The notes under the pieces: generated by a model | The model's input: only the letters and a program-made list of their open reading frames with translations | What the model was told of the DNA's origin: nothing | Databases searched by the model: none | In this document: piece by piece, positions 29,021-39,916 of the stretch | Layout: the number at the start of each line of letters is the position of its first letter | How positions within the stretch are numbered: position 1 is the first letter of the stretch | Program-made: the position numbers and the translations under genes | Origin: Rhodospirillales bacterium | GTDB lineage: Bacteria; Pseudomonadota; Alphaproteobacteria; BOG-932; Roseiterribacteraceae | Direction of reading: 5' to 3' | NCBI GenBank assembly: GCA_028291345.1 | Contig: JAQGIF010000284.1 | Span: forward strand, 1 to 42,075 | Length of the DNA stretch: 42,075 nt

Positions 29021-32000
29021 CTAAACGCTGAAGTATTTCGCTTTCGGATGATGCACTACCAGGGCCGATGTCGACTGTTCCGGGTGAATCTGGAACTCAT
29101 CGGATAAGGCTACGCCGATCCGTTCCGCATCCAGAATCTTGAAGATCGGAACCTGATCCTCCAGCCTGGGACAGGCCGGGTAGCCGAAGCTGTAGCGGCT
29201 GCCGTGATAGCTTTGGCCGAGCAGCGCATCCATGTCGCGCGCATCCTCCTCAGCGAAGCCGAGTTCGGAGCGAATGCGTTTATGGACGAATTCGGCCATC
29301 GCTTCGGCCATCTCCACGCCCAGCCCGTGCAGGTACAGGTAATCCTGGTAGCGGTTTTCCTCGAACCACTCCCGTGCCGTGTCGCTGGCCTTCGGACCCA
29401 TCGTCACGACCTGGAAAGCGACAACGTCGCGCCCGGCTGAATCGATGTCGCGGAAGAAATCGGCGATGCATTCGCCGTCGGCTCTTGCCTGCCGTGGGAG
29501 TGTGAAGCGGGTGATTTCGGTCTGGCCGTCTTCCTCGAATACGACTAGGTCGTCGCCCTCTCCGGCTGCCTTCCAATAACCATAGGCCGCCTGCGGCTGG
29601 AGGATCTGCTGCTGGTCGCAGATATCGAGCATCCGGCGCATGACTGGGCGCAACTCGCTCCGCGCCCAGGCGAGGAATTCCTCCAGACTGCGGCCGGCCT
29701 TGCGGAAACCCCATTGGAATTGGAACAGCGAGCGTTCGTTCACGTAAGGCACCAGCGCCCGCGGATCGACGTGCTCGATCAGGCGCGTGCCCCAGAATGG
29801 CGGGCTGGGAACCGCGACGCCCTGTACTAGGTTGGTGCGGCGAACTTTGGCATATTCGCGGTCGACCGGCGGCGCAGCGTCGGTGGCAACGCCCAGCTTT
29901 CGTTTCTGGTTTGACGGCTTGCCGACCCGGCGCTTCTGGATCGCAGCCAGATATTCGTCGAAGCCGTTGGTCTTGACCTTGTCCATCAGCGACAGTCCGT
30001 CAAATGCATCGCGGGCATAGGCGACGCGGCCGCTGCCGTAGGATTCGACGCAATCATCCTCGACATAGTTGCGGGTCAGCGCCGCGCCGCCAAGGAAGAT
30101 GGGGATATCGATCCCCTCGCGGGTCAGCTCGGCCAAATTCTCTCGCATCACCACGGTGGACTTGACCAGCAGTCCGGACATGCCGATGGCGTCGGCCTTA
30201 TGTTCGCGCGCAGCCGCCAGGATGTTCGCGAGCGGCTGCTTGATGCCGAGATTGACGACGCGATAGCCGTTATTTGTCAAAATGATATCGACCAGATTCT
30301 TACCGATATCGTGAACGTCGCCCTTCACGGTGGCGAGCACGATGGTGCCCTTTTCCTGGCCCTCGACCTTCTCCATGAAGGGTTCGAGATAGGCGACGGA
30401 GGCCTTCATCGTCTCGGCCGATTGCAGGACGAACGGCAACTGCATCTTGCCCGAACCGAATAGTTCGCCCACCACCTTCATGCCGTCCAGCAGGATGGTG
30501 TTGATGATGTCCAGCGGCGGATGGGTCTTCATCGCGTCCGCCAGCTCGTCTTCCAGCCCCTTGCGGTCGCCCTCGACGATGCGCAGCTTCAGACGCTCCT
30601 CGACAGTCTCGGGCCGGGCCCGTTTTTCCGAAGCCGCGGCCTTGCGGTCTGCGAAATGCGCCAGCAGGGCGTGCAGCGGATCGTAGCCTTCGCGCCTGCG
30701 GTCGAAGATCAAATCTTCCATGATCTCGATCTCTTCCGGCGGAATCAGATGCAGCGGCGCGATCTTCGACACATGGACGATCGCGCCGGTCATGCCGGCC
30801 TTGACCGCATGGTCGAGGAACACCGAGTTCAGCACATGCCGCGCGGCCGGGTTCAGGCCGAACGAGATGTTCGACAGGCCCAGTATGATCTGTACATCCG
30901 GGAATTCCTGGCGGATCAGGCGGATACCCTCGATCGTTTCCAGACCAAGCTTGCGGTCGTCCTCGTTGCCCGTCGCGATAGTGAAGGTCAGCGGGTCGAT
31001 CATCAGATCGGATTGCGGCAGGCCGTGCTTATTGCAGGCGAAATCGACCAGTCGGCGGGCGATGGCGAGCTTGTGCTCGGCCGTCTTCGACATGCCCTGC
31101 TCGTCGATCGTCAACGCGATGAGGGCGCATCCGAATTTCTTGGCCAGAACAAGGCGATCCTCGGCGTGCTTCTCACCATCTTCGAAGTTGATCGAATTGA
31201 TGATCGGCTTGCCGCCATAGAGTTTGAGCGCCGCCTCGATCACCGGTGTCTCGGTCGAATCGATCACCAGGGGCGCGGTCACGGCGCCGGTCAGGCGGGT
31301 AACCACCGCATCCATCTCGCCGGTCTCGTCGCGGCCGACGAAGGCAGTGCAGACGTCCAGCGCGTTCGAGCCCTCCTTCACCTGCTCCTTCGCCATGTCG
31401 ACGCAGCCGTCCCAATCATGCGCCTCCTGTAATTGCCGCCATTTCTTGCTGCCGTTGGCGTTGCAGCGCTCGCCGATCGAGAAGTAGGCATTCTCCTGGC
31501 GCAGCGAGACTTGGCCGTAGAGCGAAGCGACCGACGGAATCCACACTGAGTTGCGCTTCTTCGGCGCGGGCCGCTGCCCATTTTTGGCGAGCTTGCGTAA
31601 CACTCCGTCCAACGCAGCGATATGGGCCGGTGTCGTACCGCAGCAGCCGCCGATCAGATTGACCCCGTCCTCGGCGATGAAGCGTTCCAGCCACATCGCC
31701 ATTTCCTCTGGCGACAGTGGATATTTGGTCTGGCCGTCGACCAGTTCGGGCAGGCCGGCATTGGGTTGGACCGAAATCAATCCCTCCCAATTGTCCGAGA
31801 GGAACTTCACATGTTCGGCCATTTCCTGGGGGCCGGTGGCACAGTTCAACCCCATCAATGGCACGTCCAGCGCGTCGATCACGGTCGCCGCGGCGGCGAT
31901 ATCCGGCCCGACCAGCAAGGTGCCGGTGGTTTCAACCGTCACCTGAACAAAAATGGGTGTATCCGTGCCGGCTTCCTTCCGCGCGATCTTGGCGGCATTG

Positions 32001-32509
32001 ACCGCAGCTTTGATCTGCAAGGTATCCTGGCAGGTTTCGATCAATATGCCGTCGACGGCGCCCGCCACTAGCCCGCGGGCCTGGACGATCAGCCCGGCCT
32101 CCAGCCGATCATAGGTAATATGACCGAGGCTGGGCAGCTTGGTGCCCGGCCCGATTGAGCCCAGCACGAAGCGCTCTTTCCCGTGCCCGAACTTCTCGAT
32201 CGCCTCGCGCGCCAGCTCGCCGGCGCGGCGGTTGATTTCCAGCGCCCTGTCCTCCAGCCCCTCGAATTCAGCCAAGGTGATCGGCGACCCGCCGAAGCTG
32301 TTGGTCTGGATGATGTCGGAGCCGGCCTCGAGGTAGCCGCGATGAATCTCATGGACGATATCGGGGCGCGATAGGTTCAGGACCTCTGTGCAGTTCTCCT
32401 GTCCCCAATAATCGCGCTCGACATCCAGATCCATCGCCTGGACCCGGCTGCCGGTGCCGCCGTCGCATAGCAGAACTCGTTCGGCAAGCGCTTCAAGAAG
32501 TTTAGCCAA
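29021..32509 (-). CDS. metH: Cobalamin-dependent methionine synthase
   Basis: Makes methionine from homocysteine and 5-methyltetrahydrofolate via methylcobalamin. All modules are fused in 1162 residues. The homocysteine domain has zinc cysteines in LNCATGP (about 223) and GGCCGTTP (289, 290). Next come the pterin domain (FSIGERCNANGSKKW), the B12 cap and the B12 domain with the axial-ligand motif DVHDIGKN (His about 733). The AdoMet reactivation domain follows (RYSFGYPACPRLEDQ in place of the usual RxxxGYPACP). The start is probably TTG at 32509 (MAKLLEALAERVLLCDGG), 8 bp inside metF, with AGGA upstream; a GTG at 32560 is less likely. Last gene of the operon. Confidence 0.95.
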   Translation of the reverse strand: MAKLLEALAERVLLCDGGTGSRVQAMDLDVERDYWGQENCTEVLNLSRPDIVHEIHRGYLEAGSDIIQTNSFGGSPITLAEFEGLEDRALEINRRAGELAREAIEKFGHGKERFVLGSIGPGTKLPSLGHITYDRLEAGLIVQARGLVAGAVDGILIETCQDTLQIKAAVNAAKIARKEAGTDTPIFVQVTVETTGTLLVGPDIAAAATVIDALDVPLMGLNCATGPQEMAEHVKFLSDNWEGLISVQPNAGLPELVDGQTKYPLSPEEMAMWLERFIAEDGVNLIGGCCGTTPAHIAALDGVLRKLAKNGQRPAPKKRNSVWIPSVASLYGQVSLRQENAYFSIGERCNANGSKKWRQLQEAHDWDGCVDMAKEQVKEGSNALDVCTAFVGRDETGEMDAVVTRLTGAVTAPLVIDSTETPVIEAALKLYGGKPIINSINFEDGEKHAEDRLVLAKKFGCALIALTIDEQGMSKTAEHKLAIARRLVDFACNKHGLPQSDLMIDPLTFTIATGNEDDRKLGLETIEGIRLIRQEFPDVQIILGLSNISFGLNPAARHVLNSVFLDHAVKAGMTGAIVHVSKIAPLHLIPPEEIEIMEDLIFDRRREGYDPLHALLAHFADRKAAASEKRARPETVEERLKLRIVEGDRKGLEDELADAMKTHPPLDIINTILLDGMKVVGELFGSGKMQLPFVLQSAETMKASVAYLEPFMEKVEGQEKGTIVLATVKGDVHDIGKNLVDIILTNNGYRVVNLGIKQPLANILAAAREHKADAIGMSGLLVKSTVVMRENLAELTREGIDIPIFLGGAALTRNYVEDDCVESYGSGRVAYARDAFDGLSLMDKVKTNGFDEYLAAIQKRRVGKPSNQKRKLGVATDAAPPVDREYAKVRRTNLVQGVAVPSPPFWGTRLIEHVDPRALVPYVNERSLFQFQWGFRKAGRSLEEFLAWARSELRPVMRRMLDICDQQQILQPQAAYGYWKAAGEGDDLVVFEEDGQTEITRFTLPRQARADGECIADFFRDIDSAGRDVVAFQVVTMGPKASDTAREWFEENRYQDYLYLHGLGVEMAEAMAEFVHKRIRSELGFAEEDARDMDALLGQSYHGSRYSFGYPACPRLEDQVPIFKILDAERIGVALSDEFQIHPEQSTSALVVHHPKAKYFSV

Positions 32510-33452
32510 GATACTGATCCTGCTTTGAAATATGACTCTGATCACCGACGCCAAGCGCACGGCATATGTTGAGCACGAGCTCGGCCCGGTTCAGCGTGTA
32601 GAAATGGAAATGCCGCACGCCCAACGCATAGAGGTCGCGGCATTGCGCCAACGCCACCTTCGTCGCGACCGCATGCTTGAGCGCGGCATCGTCGCCCAGC
32701 CCGTCGAACTGAGCCCGAACTGCATCGGGAATATGCGCGCCGCAGGATTTCGCCATCTCGGCGGCCCGGCTAAAATTGGTCAGCGGCAGGATGCCGGGAA
32801 CAATCGGAACCGTGATGCCAGCCCTCTCTCCACGTTCGAGGAAATCTGCGTATTTTGTTGAATCAAAAAAGAATTGTGTGATCGCTCGCCTAGCGCCCGC
32901 ATCGATCTTGCGCTTCAGCGCATCGAGGTCGGCATCGGGGCTTCCCGCCTGCGGATGACATTCGGGATAGGCCGCGACGCTGATCTCGAACGGGTGAATG
33001 GCATGAAGACCAGCCACCAGATCATTGGCATAGGCGTAGCCACCGGGAGTCGGCACATAATCGCCGTCGATGCCGCCCGGGGGATCGCCTCGCAGAGCCA
33101 CGATATGGCGGATGCCGGCCTGCCAATAGGCGTCGGCAATGACGTCGATCTCATCGCGGGTCGCGTTCACGCAGGTCAGATGGGCCGCGGCCGGTAGACC
33201 GACCTCATTCTGGATGCGGCTGACCACGGCATGGGTGCGTTCTCGCGTCGATCCGCCTGCCCCATAAGTTACGGACATAAAGGACGGAACAATGGGCGCC
33301 AGCGTTTTCACGGCATGCCAGAGTTGCTGTTCCATCGCTTCGCTCTTCGGCGGGAAGAATTCGAAGCTGACGGAGATACCCGAACCGTCCACCGATGGCT
33401 GGAAATCACCGCCCGACGATTGGGCTAGCGGCTGCAAGGTAGGGTCGGTCAT
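32502..33452 (-). CDS. metF: Methylenetetrahydrofolate reductase
   Basis: FAD enzyme producing 5-methyl-THF, the methyl donor for the adjacent MetH. The 316-residue protein has the TIM-barrel family marks: VSFEFFPPKSEAMEQQLW, FMSVTYGAGGSTRERT, HLTCVNATRDEID, GIRHIVALRGDPPGG, and KRKIDAGARRAITQFFFD. About 25 N-terminal residues are a non-conserved extension. It overlaps the upstream regulator by 4 bp (ATGA) and the downstream metH by 8 bp, so all three genes are translationally coupled. Confidence 0.96.
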   Translation of the reverse strand: MTDPTLQPLAQSSGGDFQPSVDGSGISVSFEFFPPKSEAMEQQLWHAVKTLAPIVPSFMSVTYGAGGSTRERTHAVVSRIQNEVGLPAAAHLTCVNATRDEIDVIADAYWQAGIRHIVALRGDPPGGIDGDYVPTPGGYAYANDLVAGLHAIHPFEISVAAYPECHPQAGSPDADLDALKRKIDAGARRAITQFFFDSTKYADFLERGERAGITVPIVPGILPLTNFSRAAEMAKSCGAHIPDAVRAQFDGLGDDAALKHAVATKVALAQCRDLYALGVRHFHFYTLNRAELVLNICRALGVGDQSHISKQDQYLG

Positions 33453-34459
33453 TGGAACAACTCAAAATTCGGATCGGCGCGATGGGCCGGTATATGGGCT
33501 TCGGTCGGGTCGGGCCGTTCGCCACGCCATAGTTTGACGGTCAGCGCGCCCTCCGACAAGCTTGATGGGGCGGGCAAGCTTACCGGACGGCCGGCGACAA
33601 GCCCCGCCTCCCTCATCCAGCCATTGACGGTTTCGTCAGAAAACCCCGCCCACCGATGGGCATGATCGGGGCCAAGCACCGTCGCGTCATGCGGGGCAAA
33701 ATCGACCAGGATCAGCCGACCGCGCGGCCGCAGCACCCGCGCCGCCTCCTGGACGGCGAGTTCGGGGTCGGACAGAAAATGTAGCACCATGTGCGACAGC
33801 ACGACATCGAAGCTGGCATTGGCGAAGGGCAGCTTCTCGGCCGGCGCGCGGCGCAGCGCGCAATGCCGATAGTCCGGTCCGTCCAGATTGGCCCGGGCCA
33901 CTGCCAGCATTTCGCGTGACATATCGATCCCAACGGCGCGTTCGGCGCTGGCTGCGCAAAGCTGGAGCATCCGCCCGGTGCCGGTGCCGAGATCCAGCAG
34001 ATCGCCGACCTTGCGCCGGGGCAGTAGTCTGTGGATTGCCCGTTCGACCTCAGCCTCAGGGATATGCAGCGAGCGGATCGCATCCCACTCGGCGGCATGG
34101 CGCTGGAAATAGGTTTCGGCGCTGACCGCCCGGCTCCGCTGGATCGCCGCGAGGCGCTGGCGATCCAGCGCACGCACGGGATCGTCCTTGTCCAGAAAGG
34201 CAAGCAGGCCGCGCGCCAGATGCCCCGCGGCCTCGCCCGACGCCAGACGGAAATAGACATGCACGCCTTCCGGCGCGCGTTCGAGCAGCCCGGCGTCGCA
34301 GAGCAGTTTCAAATGACGCGACAGGCGCGGCTGGCTTTGGCCAAGAATCTCGACCATGTCGGTGACGCTGAGCTCGCTTTCGGCCAGCAACGCGACCAGC
34401 CGCAGACGCGTCTCCTCCGCCAGCCCGCGTAGCGCCTCCAGGAAGTTTCCGTAGTTCAC
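33449..34459 (-). CDS. ArsR-family regulator fused to a SAM methyltransferase
   Basis: A two-domain protein of about 336 residues. The N-terminal winged helix is ArsR-like (ALRGLAEETRLRLVALLAESELSVTDMVEILGQSQPRLSRHLKLLCDAGLLERAPEG) and lacks obvious metal-binding cysteines. The C-terminal class I methyltransferase domain has motif I DLLDLGTGTGRML, then VGIDMSREMLAVARANL, LPFANASFDVVLSHMVLHFL and VLRPRGRLILVDFAPHD. Placed first in front of metF-metH, it probably senses SAM or SAH and represses the operon (inference). I prefer the GTG at 34459 (VNYGNFLEALR), since the frame's first GTG at 34474 lies inside the operator palindrome. Confidence 0.92.
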   Translation of the reverse strand: MNYGNFLEALRGLAEETRLRLVALLAESELSVTDMVEILGQSQPRLSRHLKLLCDAGLLERAPEGVHVYFRLASGEAAGHLARGLLAFLDKDDPVRALDRQRLAAIQRSRAVSAETYFQRHAAEWDAIRSLHIPEAEVERAIHRLLPRRKVGDLLDLGTGTGRMLQLCAASAERAVGIDMSREMLAVARANLDGPDYRHCALRRAPAEKLPFANASFDVVLSHMVLHFLSDPELAVQEAARVLRPRGRLILVDFAPHDATVLGPDHAHRWAGFSDETVNGWMREAGLVAGRPVSLPAPSSLSEGALTVKLWRGERPDPTEAHIPAHRADPNFELFQ

Positions 34460-34462
34460 TTT

Positions 34463-34486
34463 ATATATCCACACATAAGGATATAT
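34463..34486 (-). promoter_or_regulatory. Operator palindrome of the met operon
   Basis: A perfect inverted repeat, ATATATCC - 8 nt - GGATATAT, ending 3 bp before the regulator's start at 34459 and touching the -10 box. This is a typical position for autoregulatory repression by an ArsR-type dimer. No SAM or SAH riboswitch structure was recognised in this short leader. Confidence 0.65.
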
Positions 34487-37098: not shown

Positions 37099-39309
37099 AT
37101 GAAGAACCGAGTTATTGCCGCTCTTCTTACGTCTGCCTGTTTGGGCATGGGCGGCGCCATTATCACCATACCGATGGCCTTTGCCGCGGACAGTGCGATT
37201 CCAATCGTCGCCGACGATATCGGCGGTGTGGTCACCAGCGCCAAAGGCGCCGAAGCCGGTGTGTGGGTGATCGCTGAAACCAAGGACCTGCCAACCCGCT
37301 ATATCAAGATCGTCGTGACGGACGACCAGGGCCGCTTTGTCCTGCCCACCCTGCCGAAGGCGAAATATCAGCTTTGGGTTCGCGGATACGGCCTGGTCGA
37401 CTCTAAGCCGGTCGAGGGCACGCCGGGCAATCGGGTCGATTTGACCGCCAGCGTCGCGCCCGACGCCAAGGCCGCCGCGGAATATTATCCCGCATCCTAT
37501 TGGTACGCGATGCTGCAGCCGCCCGCCGCCAGCGAGTTCCCCGGCACCGGCGCATCGGGCAACGGCATTTCGCCGACGATGCTGACCCAGCAGCATTGGC
37601 TGGAGAACATGAAAGAGAATTGCATGTTCTGCCACCAGCTGGGCGACAAGGCGACGCGCGAACTCGCCGCCACCGGCAACAGCCTCGAAGGCTGGGCGCA
37701 GCGCATCCAGATGGTGCGCGCCAATGGCGATCCCGCCATCCATAACAACGGCAAGGACATGTCGGAGACGATGCAGAACAACATGGCGCATTTCGGCCGC
37801 GACCGCGCGCTGAAGATGTATGCGTCATGGACCGACAGCATCGCCGGCGGCGCAACGCCGAAAGTGACGCCGCCCCGGCCGACGGGCGTCGAACGCAATG
37901 TCGTACTGACGATCACCGAATGGGGTGGCGGTCGCTTCATCCATGACCAAATTTCGAGCGACCACCGCGATCCGAACGTCAATGCCGGCGGCCCGATCTA
38001 TGGCATGGGGATGCTGCACAGCAATCTCGAAATCCTCGACCCCAAGACGCTGAAGACCACCACCATCCCGATCCCTGGCCTGGACGGCGCGGCGCATGAC
38101 GATACGGTGCGCATCCATGCTGACGAAATGGATGGCAAAGGCCGCGTCTGGATGCCGACGGTATCGACTGCCAGCACTGAACCGGATTACTGCAAGGATG
38201 GGTCAGTGGCGTCGTCGAAATATTTTCCGCTGACGGATAAAAAGAAGGCGGCGCAGATCGTGCTTTACGATCCCGCCACCAAGAAGATGGAGAACATCCC
38301 GCTCTGCTCGGGCGGCAATCACGGGAACTTCACCTTCGATAAGGAGAGCATCCTCTATCTCAGCGGCGACACCCAGGTGATCTCCTGGATCAACACCAAG
38401 GTCTGGGACGAGACGCACGATCCCAAGAAGGCGACCGGCTGGTGCCCGATGGTGCTGGATACCTCAGGCGACGGAAAGATCGACCCCGACCGTACCAAGT
38501 GGGTCCAGCCCGGCGACGCGTTGAAGAACGTGTCGGGCGAGGAAGGCGTCGGTCCGGTGGCGGCCGAGAAGGCGAAGCAGGCAGCGGCGACCGCCAATGC
38601 CGGGAAGGACACGCAGATCAGCCGCTATCTCTACGGCATGTCCGTCGCCAAGGATGGCAGCATCTGGGAAGCCGCCTATGTGCCTTATGTCCCATCGGGC
38701 CTCGTCCATCTGATTCCCGGCAAGAACCCGCCGGAAACCTGCAAGACCGAATATTACGAACCGCCGCTGAAGGACGGCAAATATTCGGCGGTGGGCATTC
38801 GCGGCGTCGGCATCGATTCCGCCGGGGTCGCCTGGGCGGCCTTCTCGTCCGGCCAGGTCGGCGCGTTCGACCGCCGCAAGTGCAAAGTCACGAATGGCCC
38901 GACCGCGACCGGGCAACAATGCCCCGAAGGCTGGACCTTCTATGACCTGCCCAGTCCTAAGATCGGCGACACGGCCGCGACCTCGGACTTCGTCTATTCG
39001 GAATGGGACGACATGCATGACGTCGTCGGACTGGGCAAAGAAACCCACTTTTTCCCCGCCACCAACTCCGACTCAATCGTCGCTTTGCCCGATGGCCAAT
39101 CCAAGTTCGTCACCTTCCGCATCCCTTACCCGATGGGCTTCTATACCCGTGGGCTGGACTTCCGGATCGACGACCCGAAGGACGGTTGGAAGGGCAAGGC
39201 CATGCACGCGACCTATAGCAGCGGCGTGCCGTGGCACCAGGAAGACGGCGAAGGCAGCTACAGCAAGGAAGTCTCCTTCCAGCTGAGGCCCGACCCGCTG
39301 GCGCATTGA
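37099..39309 (+). CDS. Secreted CxxCH protein with carboxypeptidase-regulatory-like domain
   Basis: A 736-residue exported protein: signal peptide (VIAALLTSACLGMGGAIITI), then an N-terminal Ig-like carboxypeptidase-regulatory domain (GGVVTSAKGAEAGVWVIAET, DDQGRFVLPTLPKAKYQLWV). A c-type heme motif CMFCH follows at residues 175-179. The rest is a long beta-propeller-like region of the streptogramin-lyase type (repeated D-G-R/S-x-W blades such as HADEMDGKGRVWMPT, MSVAKDGSIWEAA, GVGIDSAGVAWAAF). I know this arrangement as a family of uncharacterised proteins in sphingomonads and related catabolic bacteria. Its role is unknown; a periplasmic redox or sensing role for aromatic or alcohol oxidation is only a guess. 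A strong terminator follows. Confidence 0.85.
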   Translation: MKNRVIAALLTSACLGMGGAIITIPMAFAADSAIPIVADDIGGVVTSAKGAEAGVWVIAETKDLPTRYIKIVVTDDQGRFVLPTLPKAKYQLWVRGYGLVDSKPVEGTPGNRVDLTASVAPDAKAAAEYYPASYWYAMLQPPAASEFPGTGASGNGISPTMLTQQHWLENMKENCMFCHQLGDKATRELAATGNSLEGWAQRIQMVRANGDPAIHNNGKDMSETMQNNMAHFGRDRALKMYASWTDSIAGGATPKVTPPRPTGVERNVVLTITEWGGGRFIHDQISSDHRDPNVNAGGPIYGMGMLHSNLEILDPKTLKTTTIPIPGLDGAAHDDTVRIHADEMDGKGRVWMPTVSTASTEPDYCKDGSVASSKYFPLTDKKKAAQIVLYDPATKKMENIPLCSGGNHGNFTFDKESILYLSGDTQVISWINTKVWDETHDPKKATGWCPMVLDTSGDGKIDPDRTKWVQPGDALKNVSGEEGVGPVAAEKAKQAAATANAGKDTQISRYLYGMSVAKDGSIWEAAYVPYVPSGLVHLIPGKNPPETCKTEYYEPPLKDGKYSAVGIRGVGIDSAGVAWAAFSSGQVGAFDRRKCKVTNGPTATGQQCPEGWTFYDLPSPKIGDTAATSDFVYSEWDDMHDVVGLGKETHFFPATNSDSIVALPDGQSKFVTFRIPYPMGFYTRGLDFRIDDPKDGWKGKAMHATYSSGVPWHQEDGEGSYSKEVSFQLRPDPLAH

Positions 39310-39330
39310 TCGCGCCCGCTAGTCCAAGAA

Positions 39331-39368
39331 AAACCCCGTGGGCCACCCAGCCCACGGGGTTTTGTTTT
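39331..39368 (+). terminator. Strong Rho-independent terminator
   Basis: A perfect 13-bp stem, AAACCCCGTGGGC - 6 nt - GCCCACGGGGTTT, continuing into TTTTGTTTT. It ends the CxxCH protein gene; the A-rich left side lets it also serve the convergent NTF2-like gene on the minus strand. Confidence 0.92.
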
Positions 39369-39387
39369 GCAGTCGCCGCCAACGTTC

Positions 39388-39849
39388 TCAATCGTCCTTA
39401 TAAGTCACATTCGGACCCTCGGTCAGGAAGCAGCGATACATCCGGTTCTTCACCCGCCAGCCTGCCGCCGTGCGCACCAGATCGTCGTCATATTCGCCCC
39501 ACATCGAATAGATCGCACCCGGATATTTCCGGACGCCCAGATGCACGGCATAGTAATGGACCTTGGCCTTGGCGGTATCGTCGCTCACATCGATGCGGAA
39601 ATTAACCACGTTGTGATGGGTCTGGCCGCAATTGGACCCCACGCCCATATGGATATGCGCGCCGGCGATCAGCGGTTCTGTGCCCTGCATCAGCCCGTCG
39701 GGGCCCAGGGTCGACCGGTAATCCTGCACCGCATCGGTGGTGAATACCTCGGTCAGCCGATCGAAATCCTTGGCGTCGATAATATCGCAATAGTTGCAAT
39801 AGACCCGCTGAATGTCCCGCTCGTCGTTCAGTTCCTGTAAGCTCAGCAT
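39388..39849 (-). CDS. NTF2/SnoaL-like protein
   Basis: A 153-residue NTF2-like protein of the dehydratase/hydroxylase-subunit-like group. It has the helix ERDIQRVYCNYCDIIDAKDFDRLTEVFTTDAVQDY, the motif QTHHNVVNFRIDV with paired histidines in the active-site strand, and the terminal strands YDDDLVRTAAGWRVKNRMYRC. The ATG at 39849 (MLSLQELNDERD) is chosen because GGGGA lies 5 nt upstream; the ATG at 39879 lacks a ribosome site. It lies 68 bp downstream of the dienelactone hydrolase on the same strand and may be cotranscribed. Confidence 0.85.
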   Translation of the reverse strand: MLSLQELNDERDIQRVYCNYCDIIDAKDFDRLTEVFTTDAVQDYRSTLGPDGLMQGTEPLIAGAHIHMGVGSNCGQTHHNVVNFRIDVSDDTAKAKVHYYAVHLGVRKYPGAIYSMWGEYDDDLVRTAAGWRVKNRMYRCFLTEGPNVTYKDD

Positions 39850-39916
39850 CGCGTTCCCCGTATTCGCTTGAATCCGCATTCAGCCGGAGGTTAGCCGCCG
39901 CCTTGCCCTCGGGCAA

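Follow-up and report, generated by a model that had tools for sequence, protein, structure and literature searches.

The window, which is the whole 42,075-nucleotide stretch of DNA analysed here, carries on its forward strand a gene for a secreted, probably mono-heme protein with a propeller of the virginiamycin B lyase (Vgb) type and a strictly kept pocket; this product is most likely an enzyme moving electrons between the pocket and a heme c. The gene and its features are listed below, with conservation counts taken from an alignment of 57 family members unless another sample is named.

37099..39309, + strand, whole coding sequence of the exported heme/propeller protein, 736 aa, ATG start
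37099..37185, + strand, probable Sec signal peptide, aa 1-29 (sequence reading: basic start, hydrophobic stretch, AFA/A)
37219..37449, + strand, Ig-like/carboxypeptidase-regulatory domain, aa 41-117 (PF13620, 22 bits; beta strands in the model)
37450..37896, + strand, putative mono-heme cytochrome c-like domain, aa 118-266 (CxxCH, W199, R202, W244, M225)
37621..37635, + strand, CMFCH heme-attachment motif, aa 175-179 (CxxCH in 72/72 usable members)
37771..37773, + strand, M225, probable distal heme ligand (Met in 56/57, His in the other)
37897..39288, + strand, Vgb-type propeller, seven-bladed by match, about aa 267-730 (VIA Z 24.9 to 2z2n)
37942..37947, + strand, H282-D283, blade 1 pocket position (57/57 each)
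38116..38118, + strand, H340, blade 2 pocket position (55/57; inside a search peptide, thus partly biased)
38320..38322, + strand, H408, blade 3 pocket position (57/57)
38458..38484, + strand, calcium-loop-like insertion DTSGDGKID, aa 454-462 (alignment conservation)
38632..38634, + strand, Y512, blade 4 pocket position (57/57)
38800..38802, + strand, R568, blade 5 pocket position (56/57)
38995..38997, + strand, Y633, blade 6 pocket position (57/57)
39148..39150, + strand, R684, blade 7 pocket position, R or K (K in 33, R in 24 of 57)
39325..39369, + strand, intrinsic terminator, also facing the convergent gene at 39388-39879 on the - strand (folding z -5.55)

The open reading frame is real, and relatives from several phyla align over most or all of its 736 residues. 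The preliminary description, which had read in it a secreted protein with an Ig-like carboxypeptidase-regulatory domain, a single CMFCH motif, a large propeller-like region and a terminator of its own, holds as an observation. The terminator stem has a minimum free energy of -29.8 kcal/mol, and 0 of 200 shuffles folded equally well; a simple terminator consensus scan alone found 2 sites against 2.5 expected, which is not above chance. The convergent gene that this hairpin also faces is SnoaL-like, and a Pfam scan of the neighbours places peptidase, SnoaL-like and DLH-like genes beside the window copy. Elsewhere in the window, at 29021-34474 on the minus strand, genes for a B12-dependent methionine synthase, an MTHFR and an ArsR-methyltransferase fusion stand in tandem. 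Searches of NCBIfam and of PDB sequences with the window protein gave zero matches, and Pfam returned a sub-threshold PF13620 match, all remaining matches being weaker still.

Domain organization of the window protein

The PF13620 match of the Ig-like domain lies under the curated cut-off of 32.3 bits, yet all 57 aligned members match this family at E<=0.01, so that the domain is likely a remote member of CarboxypepD_reg. The CMFCH motif of the following domain is, as judged by its conservation, not a chance occurrence, because CxxCH is kept in all usable family members and M225 in all but one of the aligned ones; W199, R202 and W244 are invariant (57/57). Pfam cytochrome families match this domain below threshold (E 0.029 and 0.23), and a profile comparison pairs the segment from CxxCH to the Met weakly with NorC (E 0.69), an unrelated phosphodiesterase scoring better (E 0.16). 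A fold search with the predicted model of the isolated heme domain (pLDDT 84) gave chance matches and none to a cytochrome; this says nothing against a heme, because the model was built without one. A CcmF/NrfE-type cytochrome-c maturation gene is present in the window's genome. The earlier suggestion of a periplasmic c-type hemoprotein with a propeller is thus favoured by motif conservation, the predicted model and the maturation gene, while its covalent heme c is the part that we infer from the motif.

An AlphaFold2 model was built with the 57-row alignment (mean pLDDT 88, pTM 0.89), and in both structure searches with this predicted model the fold nearest to the propeller is seven-bladed Vgb. 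In the VIA search the propeller aligns to Vgb 2z2n over 287 residues of its 293 with an rmsd of 2.3 and 12% identity. The Z of this match is 24.9, whereas the highest-scoring unrelated propeller reaches 21.1. Vgb and the window protein share the propeller type and the x-G-[IV]-...-W motif of the inner strands (PDB 2z2n, 2qc5; PF24684), whereas the window protein has the additional heme and Ig-like domains, other residues in blades 6 and 7, and no match to PF24684 (Vgb_lyase) at E<=1; this family is also absent from the four families matched by any of the 57 members at E<=0.01. Quinohemoprotein dehydrogenases that depend on PQQ (PF01011 with a cytochrome c) are likewise propeller enzymes wired to a periplasmic heme c, with propellers of eight blades. 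Unlike them, the window protein lacks the PQQ repeat signature: PF01011 and PF13360 have no match in it at E<=1, nor in the 57 members at E<=0.01, and its reading as a PQQ enzyme was rejected on this ground. In CylK, too, a seven-bladed propeller of Vgb-like type follows an N-terminal domain of unrelated origin, and catalysis takes place where the two meet; there, in contrast, the domain is a calcium-binding beta-roll without heme and the chemistry is C-C bond alkylation (PMC8916777).

The propeller of the window protein also holds an insertion resembling a calcium loop, in which D454 is kept in 56/57 members, N or D at 458 in 55/57, G459 in 56/57 and D462 in just 31/57, and which may, from these residues, bind calcium. 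The insertion (family consensus DTNGNGK) is absent from six aligned distant heme-fused relatives.

The family and its relatives with and without heme

Our scan of species genomes found 79 loci with whole or partial relatives, whose best segments are 35-87% identical. They come from Pseudomonadota, Acidobacteriota, Verrucomicrobiota and Bacteroidota, as well as from MAGs labelled Actinomycetota, Cyanobacteriota and Marinimicrobia. The scan used six exact peptides, which biases conservation within their own segments (including C175 and H340). The 72 usable members comprise these loci, four further copies from the window's genome and the window copy, after exclusion of six loci with frame breaks (L011, L042, L070, L071, L077, L081), six partial loci (L067, L073, L074, L076, L078, L079) and the own-genome fragment L006; alignment A1 holds 57 of them, including the window copy, and leaves out the four own-genome paralogs and 11 others. 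Eleven members came from searches with the whole profile or the whole protein, and all of them keep CxxCH and every heme, Cys-pair and pocket residue checked. Five of these eleven belong to genome G001, apparently the MAG from which L007-L011 also come (the contig coordinates of one copy agree exactly between the two scans), and are thus not independent of the peptide scan; the other six, some of which may overlap with the peptide-scan loci, would add something new. Among the loci of three scans, complete members score at least 885 bits with the family profile, and L105, which ranks next, scores 180.

The preliminary description had called the family frequent in catabolic alphaproteobacteria. 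This is contradicted by its presence in 10 of 386 sampled genomes of the class, in which it is rare. The family also occurs outside the class, for instance in Acidobacteriota, Verrucomicrobiota and Bacteroidota. The window's genome has five full copies and one short fragment, the other four copies being 59-69% identical to that of the window. In a tree, the own copies of the window, C133 and C394 each pair with a different copy in a sister Rhodospirillales MAG, and these duplications therefore predate the split. The fragment (L006, C123:6814-7020) corresponds to the N-terminal aa 9-80, lies near a Vgb-like gene and a gene for a 2485-aa protein, and is possibly a decayed family copy.

Beyond the family, six distant proteins (L126, L129, L116, L110, L122, L105) likewise have a single CxxCH before a Vgb-like propeller, but their propellers are shorter and lack the long insertions of the window family, and L126 is without the Ig-like domain. 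The ring of inner-strand residues described below is largely kept in all six: by alignment reading, blade 1 has His-Asp in 5/6 (Arg-Asp in L126), blade 2 His in 5/6 (Arg in L116), blades 3 and 4 His and Tyr in 6/6 each, blade 5 Arg in 5/6 (His in L129), and blades 6 and 7 Tyr and Arg in 6/6 each. We found no description of this architecture in the open-licence PMC literature. Matches to Vgb_lyase as such occur in 25 of the 386 class genomes, in proteins of which some have a CxxCH and others do not.

Eleven heme-free loci (L140, L141, L143, L145-L150, L152, L153), among which L147 contains an internal stop, have enough of the motifs HD, PHGV, LNTA, PYGI and YAVY in common to form a group. At L148, L150 and L153 (genomes G223, G060 and G336) the propeller ORF is followed downstream by a same-strand cytochrome c ORF that either overlaps it or begins right at its end, so that a secreted heme-free Vgb-like propeller and a cytochrome c make up a small two-gene unit. 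These three share the propeller type and a similar ring with the window family but carry the heme on a separate protein and, by sequence reading, an Asn (LNTA) in blade 3 where the window family has His. The background, counted with the same search pattern, is 24 cytochrome-c-like ORFs in 1,203,283 bp, in a set that includes these three loci. Neighbour genes were taken from a longest-ORF script, which may prefer antisense ORFs in GC-rich DNA, and the cytochrome ORFs were checked directly: within 9-10 kb of ten of the eleven loci, the direct scan found cytochromes at L148, L150 and L153 only, the other eight loci having none nearby (seven over 9-10 kb, L147 over its 3.6 kb). Three heme-free loci of another type with a similar ring (L137, L151, L154) have no convincing cytochrome gene close by, the one regex match beside L154 being an 87-aa Arg/Cys-rich frame that is unconvincing as a cytochrome. 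A similar ring in such relatives implies that a linked heme need not accompany the pocket. The best evidence that the propeller works with a c-type heme is the heme fusion in the window family together with the gene pairing at L148, L150 and L153; the other eight loci of the group and L137, L151 and L154 speak against it.

The putative propeller pocket and its possible functions

In Vgb-type repeats the inner strand of each blade opens with x-G-[IV]-...-W, and the histidines of the PHAI and PHGI motifs of Vgb stand at x. The residues at x in blades 2-5 of the window protein are H340, H408, Y512 and R568, with a Trp or Tyr eleven or twelve residues on. For blades 1, 6 and 7, comparison with the aligned distant relatives gave H282, Y633 and R684 as the corresponding residues. 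Together they make a near-invariant inner-strand ring, H282-H340-H408-Y512-R568-Y633-R/K684, which would form one pocket. Six of the seven ring positions are at least 95% conserved, against 57 of the 464 propeller positions (hypergeometric P 1.7e-5, a value affected by the ring having been defined in part after looking at conservation), and the four positions in Vgb register alone give P 2e-4.

A pocket this close to invariant suggests that the protein is itself an enzyme, and we judge that the balance of probability tips slightly towards a periplasmic mono-heme enzyme in which the propeller pocket does the chemistry and the heme c carries the electrons. The substrate would bind in the top-face funnel of the seven-bladed propeller, to which each blade contributes one inner-strand residue of the ring, the covalent His/Met c-type heme of the preceding domain would accept electrons from the pocket, a redox direction that we infer, and soluble cytochromes or an oxidase would receive them from the heme. 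The Ig-like domain probably serves as a scaffold. Evidence against this reading comes from the heme-free relatives that have a similar ring but no convincing cytochrome gene nearby, and from the isolated heme domain, with its lack of a cytochrome fold match. It is also improbable that a single heme would act by itself as a two-electron oxidant. By analogy with carotenoid cleavage dioxygenase and nitrous oxide reductase, in which inner-strand histidines hold metals on the top face (PMC8916777), the His cluster of blades 1-3 (H282, H340, H408) is compatible with a metal site, and a metal may be held there. We put forward tentatively, as a proposal with a rather low chance of being right, a so far undescribed class of periplasmic oxidoreductases in which a Vgb-type propeller with a non-heme metal at H282/H340/H408, close to a Tyr/Arg-lined pocket, would be directly connected to a fused c-type heme, the same parts being split in other lineages into a propeller and a separate cytochrome c.

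The first alternative is a Vgb-like lyase or lactonase, in which a non-redox, metal-assisted cleavage would take place and the heme would be structural or regulatory. It draws on Vgb being the nearest fold, on the heme-free relatives with a similar ring and on the distant heme-fused relatives, all of which except L105 score above the cut-off of the Vgb_lyase model in Pfam. The Mg ion and a substrate analogue that Vgb binds lie near its blades 6 and 7 (PMC8916777), and in the same blade order these polar sites, which are His in Vgb, are Y633 and R/K684 in the window protein, which counts against this alternative. A Vgb catalytic constellation reached by circular permutation was also considered and is not claimed: the best rotation matches 4/7 positions, which shuffled rings equal too often for significance (P 0.10), and the register differed between two Vgb structures. 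With the heme motif kept in every usable member as a further objection, we regard a lyase or lactonase as unlikely.

The gene neighbourhoods bear on a second alternative. The own-genome copies have as neighbours, on C370, genes for a sulfatase, an MFS transporter, a TPR protein and a receptor-like protein; on C394, genes for SDRs, a molybdopterin enzyme and an alpha/beta hydrolase; and on C133, genes for a P450 and a TetR protein. TetR-like genes on C370 and C394 come from sequence reading, outside the Pfam scan. Several Bradyrhizobium loci have a FAA-hydrolase, MmgE/PrpD or TctC gene nearby. The neighbourhoods look catabolic but are without a common pathway; the substrate may be a catabolic one. 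Near two family copies on C370, L086:15305-18109 encodes a 934-aa protein that matches the plug of TonB receptors and ends in an OmpA domain. The second C370 copy is preceded, at a distance of about 53 bases, by L087:1-1977 (C370:20001-21977), which encodes a PQQ dehydrogenase propeller whose C-terminal part gives a weak cupredoxin-like match.

Over 1.08 Mb, 12 PQQ dehydrogenase genes lie near the family, at 10 of 75 loci; they are adjacent in four, and on the same strand and overlapping or close in three. Of the 12 PQQ-type neighbours, some of which are truncated at contig ends, only that of L019 contains a CxxCH. These counts lend some weight to the view that the protein is an electron-accepting partner of PQQ dehydrogenases, a large carrier resembling cytochrome cL. 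The 14 carrier genomes examined, mostly picked for this association, are, however, rich in PQQ genes (340 PF01011 matches in about 76 Mb). At their density about 5 neighbour genes would be expected against the 12 seen, which is a certain over-representation. In the class sample, 54 of all 386 genomes have a PF01011 match at E<=1e-100, and of the 10 genomes with the family 3 do (at most three candidates being scored per genome and weaker matches left uncounted), which makes an obligate PQQ partner unlikely, and zero PQQ families occur among the 11 scanned ORFs of the window. Because the carriers examined are PQQ-rich and seven of the ten family genomes have no strong PQQ match, proximity to PQQ genes is weak evidence for a partnership; a carrier, moreover, would not need an invariant propeller pocket, and we think such a partner quite improbable. 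The preliminary idea of a periplasmic electron carrier or a recognition protein for quinohemoprotein-type oxidation is weakly supported by the neighbouring PQQ genes, and the genome counts and a near-invariant pocket that points to an enzyme speak against it.

A periplasmic binding or sensor protein, with the propeller recognising a ligand and the heme sensing redox state or gas, is very improbable: Reg_prop, the propeller of two-component sensors, is matched by 4/57 members at E<=0.01 and a MEKHLA-domain gene adjoins one copy, but Pfam and NCBIfam found no signalling domain in the window protein, and enzymes, transporters and regulators make up most of the Pfam-scanned neighbours, none of which is a sensor kinase.

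Implications for Vgb-type propellers

The window protein combines known domains in an architecture that we did not find described in the open-licence PMC literature, where no paper pairs virginiamycin B lyase or a Vgb family protein with a cytochrome c, and none joins a carboxypeptidase regulatory-like domain, a cytochrome c and PQQ. Vgb-type propellers have been described in antibiotic lyases and, at a greater distance, in CylK. With a heme c fused to such a propeller across several phyla, and a cytochrome gene downstream of it in some heme-free relatives, the Vgb fold may also do redox chemistry; whether the family amounts to a new enzyme class depends on its substrate and on any cofactor of the propeller. 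The five copies in the window's own genome, set among different genes, suggest a substrate-diversified set of enzymes, one that current annotation, with zero NCBIfam matches and a sub-threshold Pfam domain only, hides from view.
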